The translations under genes were made by a program, and so were the position numbers. 53,085 nt of DNA from a virus. Below the pieces are notes generated by a model, which searched no databases, was not told the origin of the DNA, and was given only the letters and a program-made list of their open reading frames with translations. Positions within the stretch are counted from its first letter, which is position 1. Each line of letters opens with the position of its first letter. This document shows positions 3,456-50,053 of the stretch, one piece after another. The DNA is taken from IMG/VR virus record IMGVR_UViG_3300036790_000232, positions 1 to 53,085 of that record; one strand, 5' to 3'.

Positions 3456-4295
3456 ATGGCAGTGGGCGCGGCGAAATGGATATGGGAGAACTCGCGCGCC
3501 TCGAACGGCTCACTGATTGTGCTGCTTGCAATTGCCGATGAATGCGGAGAGGGGGAATTCACGGAGATGAGCGTGGCCCAGCTAATGGTCAAGTGCCGCC
3601 TTTCAGATAAGGGCGTGCGGCGTTCCGTCGAGGCCCTGGAAGCGCTCGGGGAGCTGTCCGTGGAGCCCCGGCCGGGCGGCATCAGCCGGTACGCGCCGAC
3701 GCTGACCCCGGTCATTTTGACCGGACCCACCCCGGTCATTTTGACCGGACCCCCGGCTGACCCCGGTCAAAATGACCGGACCCCTACCCCGGTCATTTTG
3801 ACCGGACCCCCGGAGGAACCGCAGGTCAACGGAACCCCGGTCAAAATGACCGGGGTGGAAATCTCCGACATTCTTTTGACTGTTACAGGTAGTTCTCTGG
3901 TGGAGGTTAAAGAGACGCCGGCAAAGCCGCCGACGTCTCCTGACCGCCCCGACGTCGAGCGACTCTGCACCCGCCTCGCCGACCGCGTCGAAGCCAACGG
4001 CAGCAAGCGCCCCGTTGTCAGCAGGAAATGGCGCGACGCCGCCCGGCTGCTAATCGACAAAGACGGGCGCACCGAGGAACAAGTTGCCGCATGCATCGAC
4101 TGGTGCCAGGCCGATGAATTCTGGCGCGGCAACGTCATGTCAATGCCGACCCTCAGAGAGAAATACGACCGGCTAAGGCTCGACGCGCTTCGCAAGCTGA
4201 AAGCCCAGAAGCGGAATTCACGCCAGCCCGACGAAGCCGATCAGCAAGAAGCACTAGAGATCGCCCGGAAGCTCGACGCCATGGAGGCAATGTGA
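3456..4295 (+). CDS. Winged-helix replication initiator-like protein with internal origin repeats
   Basis: 279 residues from ATG 3456. Residues 1-75 resemble the helix-turn-helix domain of phage replication proteins (WIWENSRASNGSLIVLLAIADECG... MSVAQLMVKCRLSDKGVRRSVEALEALGEL). Residues of about 80-135 are a Pro/Thr-rich linker encoded by five palindromes; the peptides PVILTG and PVKMTG are by-products. The C-terminal domain (about 160-270) is helical and ends in a basic, charged helix. By analogy with lambda O, whose gene contains the origin iterons, this protein probably binds the repeats in its own gene and recruits the helicase. The next gene overlaps by 4 bases and may encode the helicase loader. 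Confidence 0.65.
   Translation: MAVGAAKWIWENSRASNGSLIVLLAIADECGEGEFTEMSVAQLMVKCRLSDKGVRRSVEALEALGELSVEPRPGGISRYAPTLTPVILTGPTPVILTGPPADPGQNDRTPTPVILTGPPEEPQVNGTPVKMTGVEISDILLTVTGSSLVEVKETPAKPPTSPDRPDVERLCTRLADRVEANGSKRPVVSRKWRDAARLLIDKDGRTEEQVAACIDWCQADEFWRGNVMSMPTLREKYDRLRLDALRKLKAQKRNSRQPDEADQQEALEIARKLDAMEAM
3708..3853 (+). repeat. Five palindromic iterons, probable replication origin
   Basis: The 17-base element CCGGTCATTTTGACCGG or its complement occurs at 3708-3724, 3732-3748, 3763-3779 (complement), 3789-3805 and 3837-3853 (complement). Each has 7-base perfect arms (CCGGTCA/TGACCGG) around an AT-only centre. Spacing is 24, 31, 26 and 48 bases. All copies are exact, whereas the coding frame between them varies, which points to selection on DNA rather than protein. 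The run lies inside an initiator-like gene, the arrangement of lambda-type origins. Confidence 0.8.
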
Positions 4296-11655: not shown

Positions 11656-11725
11656 GCACGGCTGAGCGTGGCCGAGCATGGCGCGGTTTGGCAGGGCTAG
11701 GTGCGGCCCGGCAGCGCGAGGCAAC
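11656..11725 (+). repeat. Pentamer array A: 14 units of GCNNG
   Basis: Exactly 70 bases with a 5-base period. Twelve of 14 units start GC and 10 of 14 end in G; the last unit is GCAAC. A CCCCCGAAGGG hairpin follows and then ATG 11746. Arrays B and C have the same length, last unit and following hairpin, which makes chance unlikely. On RNA this gives regularly spaced GG pairs (GG-N3). Confidence 0.8.
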
Positions 11726-11745
11726 GACCCCCGAAGGGATCCACC

Positions 11746-12330
11746 ATGGACTTTCGTGTAACTCTCACAGGCACGAGCGCGCTGATCATGAACAACGCGC
11801 GCATGGCCAACCCGCTCGACCCCGCGACCAAGGCGTACAAGGCGGTCAGCGGGAAGCGGAGCAAGACCGAGCAAGACCTTGAAGGCGTTTTCCGGCTCGG
11901 CCACGCAGGGGCGATGTACCACGACGGCGACGTTGGCCCGTACTTGCCGGCCGACAACATATGGAAATCGCTGCAGGAGGGGGCCAAGAAGCACCGTCTC
12001 GGGCAGAAGGTGACCGAGGGCGTGATCATCCTGACGGACGTCAACCCGATCGCCTACAAGGGGCCGCGTGACATCCCTGGCCTGTGGTCCGACGAGAACT
12101 TCCGGTTCATGTCGATGCGCGTGACCGGCACCGGCTCGCAGCGTAAGCGCGTCCCGTTCTGCCGGCCGGTGTTCCGTGAGTGGCACACCGACTGCACGGG
12201 GACGCTTGACGACTCGATCATTGACCTGGATGAGTTCCGGTTGATCGCCGAGACTGCAGGCTCACGGGTCGGCGTTTGCGACTGGCGCCCTCGCTACGGC
12301 CGGTTCTCGGCGGTCGTTGAGGCGGCCTGA
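11746..12330 (+). CDS. Conserved phage protein of unknown function
   Basis: 194 residues from ATG 11746, just after pentamer array A and its hairpin. The signature is strong: VTLTGTSALIMNNARMANPLDP, then KRSKTEQDLE, GPRDIPGLWSDENFR and a C-terminal WRPRYGRF. I recognise this as a widespread phage family without a known function. The product is mixed alpha/beta with no membrane span. It is coupled to the next gene by a TGATG overlap, and the two probably work together. Confidence 0.7.
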   Translation: MDFRVTLTGTSALIMNNARMANPLDPATKAYKAVSGKRSKTEQDLEGVFRLGHAGAMYHDGDVGPYLPADNIWKSLQEGAKKHRLGQKVTEGVIILTDVNPIAYKGPRDIPGLWSDENFRFMSMRVTGTGSQRKRVPFCRPVFREWHTDCTGTLDDSIIDLDEFRLIAETAGSRVGVCDWRPRYGRFSAVVEAA

Positions 12331-12869
12331 TGTCGCCGTTCACCCCGAAGGGTGACCGTGCACGCTGGCGGGCGGTCTACGATCTGCTGCGCGGTTCTGC
12401 CGTGGGGGACGTGATCACGTACGAGCAGATCGGCGAAGCGCTCGACCTGGACCCGGAGGACGACCGCCACCGTATCCAGATGGCGGTACGGCGGGCCGCG
12501 AAAGAGCACGAGGAACAGGACAGGCGCGCGATCGAGGTCGTGCCCAACAGCGGGTACCGCATCGTGGAGGCACCTGAGCACCTGCGGCTGGCGCGCAAGC
12601 AGCAGAAGAAGTCATCGCGGGCGCTGGTGCGCGGGCACTCGAAGGTGACCCACGTGGACCTGTCCGGCATGGACCCGGACACGCGGCACGCCTTCGAGGT
12701 GGTAGCGCGGGCGTTCACGATGCAGATGGAATTCAACAAGCGGTTCGACGTCCGGCAGGAACGTATCGAGAACGCGGTCAGCGAGATGACCGAGCGGACC
12801 GAGCGGACCGAGCAGGAGATAGCCGACCTGAAGGCCAGGCTTGCCCGGCTGGAAGGCGAGCAGACCTAG
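12330..12869 (+). CDS. Winged-helix and coiled-coil DNA-binding protein
   Basis: 179 residues from ATG 12330 (TGATG junction). Residues 1-65 look like a winged helix (GDVITYEQIGEALDLDPEDDRHRIQMAVRRAAKEH). Residues 85-110 are basic and include RGHSKVTHVDLSGMDPDTRHAFE; residues 130-178 are a coiled coil (heptads around ERIENAVSEMTERTERTEQE). I recall this combination as the usual partner of the preceding family. The stop codon lies at the very start of pentamer array B. Confidence 0.65.
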   Translation: MSPFTPKGDRARWRAVYDLLRGSAVGDVITYEQIGEALDLDPEDDRHRIQMAVRRAAKEHEEQDRRAIEVVPNSGYRIVEAPEHLRLARKQQKKSSRALVRGHSKVTHVDLSGMDPDTRHAFEVVARAFTMQMEFNKRFDVRQERIENAVSEMTERTERTEQEIADLKARLARLEGEQT

Positions 12870-12938
12870 CAGGGCACGGCACGGCAGGGCTGGGCTTAGC
12901 CCGGCTTGGCGCGGCAGCGCGTGGCTAGGCAAGGCAAC
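12869..12938 (+). repeat. Pentamer array B: 14 units of GCNNG
   Basis: All 14 five-base units begin GC and 11 end in G; the last is GCAAC. The array starts on the final G of the preceding stop codon. It is followed by the hairpin CCTC-CGTA-GAGG (12941-12952), which keeps the shape of the hairpins after arrays A and C with different paired bases. Confidence 0.8.
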
Positions 12939-12956
12939 GGCCTCCGTAGAGGTGGC

Positions 12957-12996
12957 AGGGTGACCGGCAGTCATCCCGGTTCGAGACCGGGGCACC
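12957..12996 (+). other. tRNA T-arm-like hairpin between arrays B and C
   Basis: CCCGG-TTCGAGA-CCGGG (12975-12991) matches a tRNA T arm, including the TTCGA loop. An outer helix GGGTG/CACCC encloses it. There is no matching acceptor 5' strand, D arm or anticodon arm upstream, so this is a T-arm mimic or minihelix, not a tRNA gene. It lies exactly between two pentamer arrays. Confidence 0.55.
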
Positions 12997-12999
12997 CGC

Positions 13000-13069
13000 G
13001 CAAGGCTGGGCATGGCTGGGCCGGCCCCGGCTGGGCGCGGCCTGGCGCGGCATGGCGTGGCACGGCAAC
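13000..13069 (+). repeat. Pentamer array C: 14 units of GCNNG
   Basis: Thirteen of 14 units begin GC and 13 of 14 end in G; the last is GCAAC as in A and B. The following hairpin and ATG 13089 repeat the arrangement of array A. B and C together form a duplicated leader flanking the T-arm-like hairpin. Confidence 0.8.
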
Positions 13070-13070
13070 G

Positions 13071-13088
13071 ACCCCCGAAGGGGAGAGC
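13071..13088 (+). promoter_or_regulatory. Hairpin that hides a ribosome binding site
   Basis: CCCC and GGGG pair around CGAA (about 13072-13083). The GGGGAGAG used as ribosome binding site for ATG 13089 is partly within the stem, so the hairpin can control translation. The hairpin after array A at 11727-11739 is almost the same. Confidence 0.6.
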
Positions 13089-13331
13089 ATGACAACGACC
13101 ACCGTCACCACCGTCCGCTGTGACCAGTGCGGCAAGACCGTGCCGAAGGAACAGCGTGACGGGTGGCTGTTCCTGAACGTCATGAGCAAGGAAGCCCACA
13201 GGAGCAGGGTCGACTTGACCATCGCTGGACTTCGCTGGCCGGCCGCGCTCTCGTCTGACCTGTGCTCATGGGAGTGCGTCCGCGACTACGCGGCCCTCCA
13301 GTTGCTTGACCCGACACCTGAGCAGCCGTAA
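13089..13331 (+). CDS. Small zinc-ribbon protein
   Basis: 80 residues from ATG 13089. RCDQCGKTVPKEQRDGW near the N-terminus and DLCSWECVRDY near the C-terminus give four Cys in two pairs (CxxC and CxxxC), typical of a zinc ribbon. Its 3' end overlaps the terminase gene tail-to-tail by 66 bases. Function unknown; it is the gene directly controlled by array C. Confidence 0.65.
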   Translation: MTTTTVTTVRCDQCGKTVPKEQRDGWLFLNVMSKEAHRSRVDLTIAGLRWPAALSSDLCSWECVRDYAALQLLDPTPEQP

Positions 13332-18562: not shown

Positions 18563-20058
18563 AGGGTCAGGTGGCGATCCCTGAAAGCTCAGAGGAGCTT
18601 GAGGAGCTGCTTCACGACGACAGCCGGATGGGCGACGTGGCAGGCAGCCCCGAGCTGCTAGCGGAGTTCACCCAGAAGTACCAGGGCGCGTGGAAGGCGA
18701 AGAACGCCGCCGCGATCCGCGAGTACGAGGAGAAGCGGCAGGTTGACCTGCAAGCCTTCATGAAGGAGCAGGTCGACAAGCACGGTGCGCGCGCCCCGGA
18801 GGGCTGGCAGCCCGGCGCGGCGGCGGCGGCCGGCGGCCCGCGGCGCCAGAAGGCACTCGGCCGCTCGCGGCTGCGGAACGCTGCGGCGCAGTTCGAGCGG
18901 CACCACCTGTTCAGCGAGCGGGCGATCGGGGCCGAGCTGGAGGACGCCGAGTACGGCGACAGCCTGCGGCAGTTCATCTGGGCGACGCTGAAGGGTGAGG
19001 CGGTCGCAGCCCGCGACGGCAACAGCGAGCTCGCCGCGAAGCTGCTGGCGCTCAAGGGCAGCATCGCGAAGACGCTGACGATCCGCAACGCGGGCATGTC
19101 CGAGCGGATCCCGGCCGAGGGCGGCTTCCTGGTCCCGGAGACGCTCAGGTCCGAGCTTCTCGCGCTGATGCTGGAAGAGTCGGTGATCAGCGACCAGGTG
19201 ACCACGATCCCGATGGACAGCCTGCGGGTGCCGCTGCCGACGATCGACGACACGACCCACGTGGGCAGTGTCTTCGGCGGCGTGTCGGGCGCGTGGACGG
19301 CTGAGGGCGCGGCACTGGACGAGAGCGAGCCGAAGTTCAGCCGGCTTGTCCTGATCGCGAACAAGCTCACTGCGTACACCGAGATCCCGAACGAGCTTTT
19401 GCAGGACAGCATCACGGCGATGGACGTGTGGTTCAACACGTTCTTCCCGCAGGCGCTGGCCTTCTTCCGTGACCTGGCGTTCATCGCGGGCAACGGCGTC
19501 GACCAGCCGCTCGGCCTGGTCAACGCTCCCGGCGCGGTCACAGTGACGGGCACCAGCGGGCACCACATCAAGTTCGCGAACGTGGTATCGATGTTCTCCC
19601 GGATGTGGCCGGGCTCGCTGAAGAACGCCGTGTGGCTGGCCGCGCCGGACACGCTGCCGGAGCTGGCGCAGATGGCGGTGTCCGAGGACGGCTCCGGTAC
19701 GACTGTGGCGCCGCCCGTGTTCCTGCCGGGCATGTCGGCGCTGAACGCGCCGGGCGAGTACGACGGCCGGTCGTTCACCCTGATGGGCCTCCCCGGGATC
19801 GTCAGTGAGAAGGTGCCGGCGCTTGCCGGGTCGGTGCCGGGCTCGCTCATGCTCGTCGACCTGAGCAAGTACCTCGTCGGCGACCGGCAGGCAATGCAGA
19901 TCGCGTCTTCGGCCGAGTACAAGTTCGGTAACGACAAGGTCGCCTACCGCGTCATCGAGCGCCTCGACGGCCGCCCGTGGGTCCAGTCGCCGATCACCCC
20001 GGCGAACGGGTCGGCGAACACCCTGTCCCCGTACGTCCTGCTGAACACCACGGCCTGA
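18559..20058 (+). CDS. Major capsid protein 1 (HK97 fold, with delta domain)
   Basis: 499 residues from ATG 18559. Residues 1-180 are charged and coiled, corresponding to the scaffolding delta domain that the protease would remove. The HK97 coat starts near 187-193 (EGGFLVP) and continues with TEIPNELLQDS and FIAGNGVDQPLGLVN; the C-terminal YRVIERLDGRPW is typical. It builds the icosahedral shell. A shorter paralogue follows immediately, coupled by TGATG. Confidence 0.9.
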   Translation: MKGQVAIPESSEELEELLHDDSRMGDVAGSPELLAEFTQKYQGAWKAKNAAAIREYEEKRQVDLQAFMKEQVDKHGARAPEGWQPGAAAAAGGPRRQKALGRSRLRNAAAQFERHHLFSERAIGAELEDAEYGDSLRQFIWATLKGEAVAARDGNSELAAKLLALKGSIAKTLTIRNAGMSERIPAEGGFLVPETLRSELLALMLEESVISDQVTTIPMDSLRVPLPTIDDTTHVGSVFGGVSGAWTAEGAALDESEPKFSRLVLIANKLTAYTEIPNELLQDSITAMDVWFNTFFPQALAFFRDLAFIAGNGVDQPLGLVNAPGAVTVTGTSGHHIKFANVVSMFSRMWPGSLKNAVWLAAPDTLPELAQMAVSEDGSGTTVAPPVFLPGMSALNAPGEYDGRSFTLMGLPGIVSEKVPALAGSVPGSLMLVDLSKYLVGDRQAMQIASSAEYKFGNDKVAYRVIERLDGRPWVQSPITPANGSANTLSPYVLLNTTA

Positions 20059-22280: not shown

Positions 22281-23038
22281 CCGCGAAGGTAACCACGGCT
22301 GCCAAGCCGAAGAAGGCCGCTGCCCCGGCGAAGGCCAAGTCGACGACGACGAAGGCGAAGACCGCGACCAAGAAGACGACGACGAAGGCGAAGAGCGCGA
22401 AGCCTGTAGCGAAGCACGCCGTTCCCGACGCGCATCAGCTGCACCTTGCACACCTGGCTCACCTGAAGGCCGAGGGGAAGGCCGGGTTCGCGGTCGGTGA
22501 CCTGCTGCCGGTGTGCTCGTTCGAGGCGGTCGCTCAGTCGCTAAGGCTGGCGGGTCAGTTCGTCCACGATGACGAGGTGGCCTGGCTGTGGGAGCTTGCC
22601 GGCTCGCCTGCGCTCGGCGCGAGTCTGGGTGCGGCGCTGGACACGGCGGGTGAGCACGGGCTTGCGGGGTTCCGGCCACAGCGGGTGCAGCTCGAACGGC
22701 TTCGACCAGTCTGCGCGCAGGATCATCTCCCGCTGCCACTCGCTCAGGATGAAGCCTTTGCGCTCGGCCCATTCGAGGACTTCCTCGCCGGTGACTTCCA
22801 TGACCCGATCCTAGGGGGGAGTGCCGGGCGGGACTCGAACCCGCGACAACCGTTTAACGCTAGGCCGGCTCGGTGCTCTGCCGCTGAGCTACCGGCACTC
22901 CCTGCGCTGATCCTACGTATCGACGTGCCCGGCCCGCACGCGGTGCTGGCCACGCGTGACGGCTGGTGGTCGTGGGGTGAGCTGTTCACGCCGTGGCCCG
23001 CGCGGGTCAGCGAGGCGTGGGCGGTGAGCTGGTCATGA
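22277..23038 (+). CDS. Lys/Ala-rich protein; 3' half overlaps antisense genes
   Basis: GTG 22277 overlaps the upstream gene by 4 bases. Residues 1-45 are histone H1-like (KPKKAAAPAKAKSTTTKAKT). Residues of about 48-90 look like normal protein (AHLAHLKAEGKAGFAVGDLLPVCSFEAVAQSLRLAG). Beyond this the frame stays open to 23038 but runs antisense to an 86-residue ORF and a tRNA-like gene. Codons in the middle part are less GC-rich at third positions, so they are probably not selected as protein; the last 40 codons look coding again. The true end of this protein is uncertain. Confidence 0.45.
   Translation: MTAKVTTAAKPKKAAAPAKAKSTTTKAKTATKKTTTKAKSAKPVAKHAVPDAHQLHLAHLAHLKAEGKAGFAVGDLLPVCSFEAVAQSLRLAGQFVHDDEVAWLWELAGSPALGASLGAALDTAGEHGLAGFRPQRVQLERLRPVCAQDHLPLPLAQDEAFALGPFEDFLAGDFHDPILGGSAGRDSNPRQPFNARPARCSAAELPALPALILRIDVPGPHAVLATRDGWWSWGELFTPWPARVSEAWAVSWS
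22541..22801 (-). CDS. Antisense 86-residue protein of the tRNA-like island
   Basis: Minus-strand ATG 22801 to TAG 22541. The sequence (VTGEEVLEWAERKGFILSEWQREMILRA... RRVQRRTQTRAERRRAGKL) has clear GC-ending codons on this strand and an amphipathic helix followed by a very basic region. It lies downstream of two tRNA-like genes on the same strand, so all three may be one transcript. The basic part could bind RNA or DNA. No family is known to me. Confidence 0.6.
   Translation of the reverse strand: MEVTGEEVLEWAERKGFILSEWQREMILRADWSKPFELHPLWPEPRKPVLTRRVQRRTQTRAERRRAGKLPQPGHLVIVDELTRQP
22821..22898 (-). tRNA. tRNA-like gene with abnormal anticodon region (1)
   Basis: The minus strand has a perfect 7-bp acceptor (GTGCCGG/CCGGCAC), D arm TA-GCTC-AGCGGCA-GAGC and T arm GCGGG-TTCGAGT-CCCGC. 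Between GAGCA and the T arm lie 29 bases instead of about 22; only CCG and CGG can pair and no 7-base anticodon loop with T33 forms. A GTTAA segment recalls an Asn anticodon loop but lacks its 5' stem. Flanking bases extend the acceptor to 11 bp. No CCA is encoded. It is either a degenerate tRNA or a functional tRNA-like RNA. Confidence 0.6.
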
Positions 23039-49743: not shown

Positions 49744-49946
49744 TGGCCGCCGTCCGGCACCTGACCGAGGCGGAGTTCGCCGAGCGCGAGGGCGTCGACG
49801 AGGAGACCGCCAAGAAGTGGCGGAAGAACGGCACCGGGCCGCGGTACCTCCAGCTCACCAAGAGCGCGACCAAGGGCACCGTCCGCTACCGCGAGGCCGA
49901 CGTCGAGGCGTGGGAGCTAGAGCGCCTCGTCCCCGCCACCGCCTAG
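49743..49946 (+). CDS. xis: Excisionase-like MerR/HTH_17 protein
   Basis: 67 residues from ATG 49743 (TGATG). LTEAEFAEREGVDEETAKKWRKNGTGPRYLQLT...VRYREADVEAWE is the compact winged helix of excisionases of actinobacterial elements. With the integrase it should direct excision. Placement under the Cro-side promoter ties excision to lytic induction. Confidence 0.75.
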   Translation: MAAVRHLTEAEFAEREGVDEETAKKWRKNGTGPRYLQLTKSATKGTVRYREADVEAWELERLVPATA

Positions 49947-49955
49947 AACGCGGCA

Positions 49956-50002
49956 GCCCCCGGTGCACGGGGGCCGCCAGCAGTGGCAGCCGCTAGCTGC
50001 CA
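49956..50002 (+). terminator. Two consecutive hairpins after xis-like gene
   Basis: GCCCCCG-GTGCA-CGGGGGC (49956-49974) and TGGCAGC-CGCTA-GCTGCCA (49984-50002), both with perfect 7-bp stems. A pair of terminators or a processing site between the regulatory genes and the early operon. Confidence 0.6.
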
Positions 50003-50053
50003 GCCCGGCGGGAGAACGCCACGCCGGTCACATCAAGGTAACAGGAGAACGCA

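Follow-up and report, generated by a model that had tools for sequence, protein, structure and literature searches.

A probable VIPR locus of an actinobacterial phage with three guide-RNA genes and a recurring tRNA-like minihelix between guides

The stretch of DNA analysed here (IMG/VR: IMGVR_UViG_3300036790_000232, positions 1 to 53,085; called the window below) very probably carries a VIPR system of an actinobacterial phage, in which three pentamer arrays (A, B and C) are vrRNA genes and B and C are split by a recurring tRNA-like minihelix. VIPR, first presented in a 2026 preprint (PMC13142463), is a phage-encoded RNA-guided system that combines a Cas7-like protein with guides made of 5-base repeats. 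The preprint's main text defines a vrRNA as 9-16 YNNGG repeats with a tail, located beside a RAMP gene in phages, and describes a Vipr-vrRNA complex that reads DNA with 1-nt skips and represses transcription of competing phages (PMC13142463). The experiments presented there come so far from E. coli and Pseudomonas examples, and vrRNAs of the SUSP1 clade have a structured tail with a pseudoknot (PMC13142463). The features of the locus are as follows.

11660..11724, + strand: vrRNA A repeat tract, 13 GGY-NN units (NN: TG GT CG AT GC TT AG TA GC CC AG GA AA)
11725..11739, + strand: vrRNA A tail, hairpin CCC-CGAA-GGG; the tail sequence is repeated after C
11746..12330, + strand: vipr, RAMP (Cas7-like) protein of 194 aa, phrog_4652; from homology and the fold of a model
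12330..12869, + strand: vap accessory gene, 179 aa, predicted DNA-binding with a C-terminal coiled coil, phrog_5926; from homology
12873..12937, + strand: vrRNA B repeat tract, 13 units (NN: AC AC AG TG TT CC TT GC AG GT TA AA AA)
12938..12956, + strand: vrRNA B tail, hairpin CCTC-CGTA-GAGG; from sequence and folding against shuffles
12957..12998, + strand: tRNA-like minihelix AGGGTGACCGGCAGTCATCCCGGTTCGAGACCGGGGCACCCG, with acceptor stem GGGTG/CACCC, linker CCGGCAGTCAT and T-arm CCCGG-TTCGAGA-CCGGG; from a covariance model
13004..13068, + strand: vrRNA C repeat tract, 13 units (NN: TG AT TG CG CC TG GC CT GC AT GT AC AA)
13069..13086, + strand: vrRNA C tail, hairpin CCCC-CGAA-GGGG; from sequence and folding against shuffles

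The order on the + strand is thus array A with its tail, vipr, vap, array B and its tail, the minihelix, array C with its tail and a short ORF. The gene for the terminase large subunit lies just downstream of the locus on the opposite strand, with the portal gene beyond it. The short ORF after array C (13089-13331) encodes 80 aa with a CxxC...CxxxC pattern and has no match in PHROG or Pfam; it may encode a genuine phage protein that binds zinc. Three perfect 9-base repeats (12788-12813; GACCGAGCG) lie in the coiled-coil end of vap. Elsewhere in the window, a 26-base unit is repeated in tandem at 3701-3813 and includes the palindrome CCGGTCATTTTGACCGG; these units could form an operator or terminator cluster. 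ARAGORN detected a tRNA-Gly(gcc) and, as a doubtful call, another tRNA whose anticodon is odd (22817-22899 and 49929-50014).

The three arrays lie on the + strand of the 53 kb window (70% GC) and keep a strict 5-base period from their starts at 11656 (A), 12869 (B) and 13000 (C). The preliminary description, made from the sequence of the window, had reported 14 GCNNG units in each array, a GCAAC at every end and a non-coding nature of the repeats, all of which we confirmed. Fits to the fixed positions were 36 (A), 39 (B) and 40 (C) of 42, whereas ten Markov-shuffled versions of the window reached no more than 31; the next-best place on the + strand reached at most 29 of 42 and itself overlaps array B. 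Read in the GGY-NN frame, each array consists of 13 units with 36/39 (A), 37/39 (B) and 38/39 (C) conforming positions, and array A contains three imperfect units. The hairpin described after each array is present in all three, common to A and C and in a variant form in B, but its folding is weak against shuffles (z -0.5 for A, -1.9 for B and -1.4 for C). A location before start codons applies to A, which ends about 21-22 bases ahead of the vipr ATG (11746), and to C, which ends 20 bases ahead of the ATG of the predicted short ORF (13089), but not to B, which begins at the vap stop codon and has the second RNA element and then array C downstream. The 15 bases directly upstream of tract A (TGGTGTCTATTGCAC) are identical in a relative (L062), consistent with a conserved start region before A. 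A consensus promoter scan found no promoter before A, and consensus promoter and terminator scans of the + strand gave no useful result.

With a GG tract every 5 bases in all three arrays, the repeats might also be taken for two-layer G-quadruplexes, as had been suggested for the GG-N3 spacing. We consider this extremely unlikely. A quadruplex does not need the conserved pyrimidine at the third base (GGY at 36-38 of 39), and it leaves the variable NN letters and the linkage to Vipr unexplained; the arrays can be accounted for without it.

Vipr of the window shows 32% identity to Vipr of the Escherichia phage SUSP1 (E 5e-33), and both proteins match phrog_4652, a PHROG family without assigned function. 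The closest homologues are found in actinobacterial-type prophages and metagenome phages, e.g. in Planomonospora venezuelensis (57%) and in phages of Gordonia and Mycobacterium. An alignment-based AlphaFold model of the window Vipr reached a pLDDT of 95 (single-sequence AlphaFold: pLDDT 30). The best PDB matches of this model were RAMPs of the Csm3/Cas7 type (Foldseek E 2e-5; Z 10.9, rmsd 3.5 over 154 residues for Csm3/Cas7 (VIA)), and the predicted fold of the window Vipr is the RAMP fold. For Vap, a chain of homology leads from the window over gp77 of MakoManhole, annotated as 'DNA binding protein' (E 8e-27), to the SUSP1 vap (E 1e-6), compared with E 0.005 for the direct alignment of the two ends; LittleE provides a further connection. 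Through this chain, vap is assigned to the DNA-binding, type II kind of accessory gene.

Arrays and Vipr find each other in both directions. A DNA search of IMG/VR with the pattern (GGCNN)5GGCAAC alone returned at least 119 stretches, and among the matches listed a Vipr homologue is encoded on 96 of 119 contigs, with arrays of about 6-31 units, many of which end in GGCAA followed by a hairpin. Conversely, 99 loci were fetched by the Vipr protein only, and 89 of these relatives carry arrays on the vipr strand, compared with one locus with arrays on the other strand, so that the arrays do recur in related phages. Their absence there, which the preliminary description had named as a refutation, was not observed. 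Both sets contain some near-duplicates. The array finder recovered the arrays of SUSP1 as a positive control. Some loci depart from the usual picture. One (L014:8584-9260) contains at least nine dense, near-contiguous GGCNN arrays in series instead of the usual one to five, and may represent the staggered type mentioned in the preprint's main text (PMC13142463). Another (L030:7333-7860, the same as L220) has arrays of 20, 25 and 31 units, beyond the 9-16 reported for vrRNAs. In the M. abscessus prophage prophiT49-3 (L284), 84 bases (19434-19517) are shared with the flank of the VIPR locus in L192 and the rest of the queried stretch is unmatched; this may be a site from which VIPR is absent.

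Comparison of the NN letters revealed strong divergence. Within the window, NN identity is 8% for A-B, 33% for A-C and 21% for B-C. In four Mycobacterium abscessus prophages, NN letters at matching positions are on average about 30% identical (range 12-50%), whereas the inter-array spacer RNAs of the same prophages are 93-96% identical. The spacer thus behaves as scaffold and the array as payload. The variable letters, hypervariable beside a constant scaffold, appear to be the information and not filler.

These results bear on the reader of the repeats. The preliminary description had proposed that an oligomerising protein which binds RNA reads the period at the RNA level, and the linked Cas7-like RAMP agrees with this general expectation. 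It had further proposed a ring protein such as Bacillus TRAP, with the arrays as cis-acting RNA leaders that control translation or transcription of the following gene. The distances of 21 and 20 bases between arrays A and C and an ATG, with a hairpin beside the ribosome-binding region, would suit such leaders, and TRAP is likewise a protein oligomer that reads RNA triplets at about 5-base spacing. The repeated triplet, however, is GGY and not NAG, and the encoded neighbour is a RAMP and not an mtrB-type ring protein. Array B is followed by no gene, many arrays in the Vipr-fetched relatives stand in series or downstream of genes, and NN letters diverge to near chance while spacers stay constant. 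Cis-acting leaders are therefore very unlikely. Instead of TRAP-type leader attenuation, we favour separate guide-RNA genes whose products act in trans with a protein of another fold. A class 1 CRISPR-Cas array was rejected, as the tracts are pentamer repeats without spacers. The likeness to these systems lies in the RAMP fold and, by analogy with Cas7/Csm3 filaments on crRNA, in one subunit per short RNA period; the difference lies in the lack of a repeat-spacer array and in pentamers with 2-base information units.

The known type II system of SUSP1 (PMC13142463) is also phage-encoded and has a homologous Vipr, a homologous DNA-binding vap and GGY-NN vrRNAs up- and downstream of the vipr-vap pair. 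In contrast to SUSP1, the window belongs to an actinobacterial phage of 70% GC, its units are GGC rather than GGT, its tails are short hairpins rather than a pseudoknot and a tRNA-like minihelix stands between its serial vrRNAs. By analogy with the preprint, each vrRNA would be a run of 13 GGY-NN pentamers with a short hairpin tail, along which Vipr copies would line up, one per GGY. The NN pairs would jointly define a DNA target with gaps, in the form NNxNNx, following the code given in the main text (PMC13142463). Transcription of the competitor, a phage or mobile element, would then be repressed by guided binding, with vap as a DNA-binding helper. We infer that the window copy is expressed and guides DNA binding.

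Searches for targets allowing up to 3/24 mismatches revealed none for B in 299 genomes from the order to which the Planomonospora host genome of L141 belongs and none for A and C in 101 genomes of its family. Patterns of eight NNxNNx units matched viral contigs exactly (A: 5, B: 13, C: 1); these were rejected as targets, since extension to 12 units gave additional matches at chance level. Many of the B matches share the conserved peptide TLANGKQL, showed no further extension and were likewise rejected. Two M. abscessus guides had 5 and 20 matches, which were rejected for lack of a convincing extension, and no targets were found in the two M. abscessus prophages examined. An all-against-all comparison of 401 vrRNAs over 2.2 Mb, a small set not enriched for competitors, revealed no convincing 1-nt-skip preference. 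The lack of a convincing target, the weak tail hairpins and the imperfect units of array A count against the VIPR reading of the window. When one vrRNA (L213:4267 and L213:5153) is read with 1-nt skips, 18/20 of its NN bases fit the minus strand of the locus that encodes it, possibly a self-target or a chance match.

The element between the tail of B and array C resembles the acceptor and T-arm half of a tRNA. The D arm and the anticodon arm are absent, and the 11-base linker has no room for either. ARAGORN called no tRNA at 12957-12998, and a tRNA gene was rejected at this place because no cloverleaf with D and anticodon arms can be formed. In the window, the covariance model gave one strong match (12957-13001, E 4.7e-12), followed by a match of E 0.1 on the real tRNA-Gly. 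An Rfam search of six relatives was without a match, and in the window region it gave nothing beyond chance matches below threshold.

Among 95 Vipr loci, covariance model R1 detected 61 matches in 28 loci, every one on the vipr strand and within the VIPR locus, while 82 other array loci contained almost none. An array is present on both sides of 42 of the 61 matches. The minihelix occupies 36 of 40 gaps between adjacent vrRNAs of the 28 carrier loci (38 of 40 by eye) and starts 3-19 bases past most arrays; in some loci a copy precedes the first or follows the last array, with copies ahead of the first array in MakoManhole and Trine. In the Vipr tree, carriers fall mainly into one actinobacterial-phage clade, outside of which are L193 and the pair L209/L211. 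A search for T-arms in the array-fetched and isolate-phage loci (2.27 Mb, both strands counted) found 15 beside arrays and 11 elsewhere. A minihelix-like element without an adjoining array was detected at L104:9873-9917 (E 2e-6).

In an alignment of 28 copies of equal length, both partners change in 11 of 12 pairs, and 95.8% of cells are paired; this percentage is partly given by construction, since the covariance alignment was drawn from elements picked for their paired stems and a fixed length of the linker. None of 500 shuffles showed covariation as good, and the signal collapses upon a 1-base slide; as the aligned sequences are related, these shuffle counts are not probabilities. Three properties lie outside the selection criteria: the one-strand placement, the GG of the linker and a pairing between linker and T-loop. 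The GG was found near the linker start in 40 of 44 acceptor-linker-T-arm elements, a wider set collected without requiring an array. By analogy with tRNA structure, it would be placed to mimic G18-G19 of the D-loop. Position 60 of the T-loop is paired with a base of the linker (AU 7, CG 6, GC 5, UA 3; contact missing in 7/28), and position 59 with the neighbouring linker base.

Phages often carry tRNAs or integrate at tRNAs, and the minihelix, with its tRNA-like T-arm, might be a decaying fragment from integration or tRNA capture. Against decay, compensatory changes keep the pairing across copies, D and anticodon arms are missing throughout, and the copies stand between arrays and on one strand only. 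We regard this origin as very improbable.

Bacterial RNase P recognises the stacked acceptor and T stems, and the remainder of the tRNA is dispensable for binding (PMC11221534). The structure of the minihelix fits such a minimal substrate with coaxial acceptor and T stems, and we predict that it is one. At the 5' border, where the tail of B meets the minihelix, a cut by host RNase P would generate the 3' end of the guide before it. At the 3' border, RNase Z or another enzyme for tRNA 3' ends would generate the 5' end of the following guide; if this cut fell past the terminal purine of the minihelix, CGCA(A/C)-GGC would remain, which is similar to the GCAC-GGC found where array A begins. We consider it slightly better than an even chance that these host enzymes separate the guides at the minihelix.

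The main rival to processing is that the minihelix is retained as the 3' handle of the upstream vrRNA, kept in the RNP by Vipr or Vap as the counterpart of the structured tail of SUSP1. The pseudoknot tail of the SUSP1 clade, described in the main text of the preprint (PMC13142463), the short distance between most arrays and the minihelix and its own pairing of linker and loop all argue for a handle. The lack of a 3' CCA, the only 5-6 acceptor pairs with mismatches at their ends and the copies that lie ahead of the first array or behind the last one in some loci speak against processing. Against a handle, the window arrays A and C are followed by no minihelix. It is also often missing after the vrRNA nearest to vipr, which has much the same short tail; in the M. 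abscessus prophages, the tails of the vrRNAs are similar and short (mostly ACAAGGGNTACA), with a minihelix after the first two only. The copies ahead of the first array in MakoManhole and Trine and the mimicry of tRNA by T-loop and GG linker likewise speak against a handle. A retained handle is possible but, at roughly one chance in four, unlikely.

Separation of guides by an RNA element has parallels. Hammerhead ribozymes interspersed in other VIPR arrays, according to the main text of the preprint, are likewise RNA elements between successive vrRNAs that could separate them; these are self-cleaving, whereas the minihelix would need host enzymes (PMC13142463). The present element is new relative to that main text, which mentions neither tRNA nor RNase P; the comparison covers the main text, and the authors of the preprint may already be aware of the spacer.

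In the case of MALAT1, the tRNA-like mascRNA follows immediately after an RNA that receives its 3' end from RNase P. The position directly downstream of an RNA is common to both elements; the minihelix differs in belonging to a bacterial phage, in its repetition between guides and in its reduction to acceptor and T-arm.

The finding places a complete system of vipr, vap and several guides in actinobacterial phages and prophages, including those of Mycobacterium abscessus and Gordonia, and thereby offers a setting in which phage-phage conflict can be studied. We hold the chances to be evenly balanced that actinophage VIPR uses a reduced tRNA mimic, repeated between guides and with its own tertiary contact (linker dinucleotide to T-loop 59-60) beside a D-loop-like GG, so that host RNase P, together with a tRNA 3'-end enzyme, processes a poly-guide transcript. 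If the minihelix is a processing signal, guide arrays would mature without a dedicated nuclease, in analogy to Cas6 or tracrRNA/RNase III in CRISPR, and several VIPR guides could be expressed compactly from one transcript. If true, the machinery of tRNA processing would here run a natural guide array, within a RAMP system for which an origin before CRISPR has been proposed.
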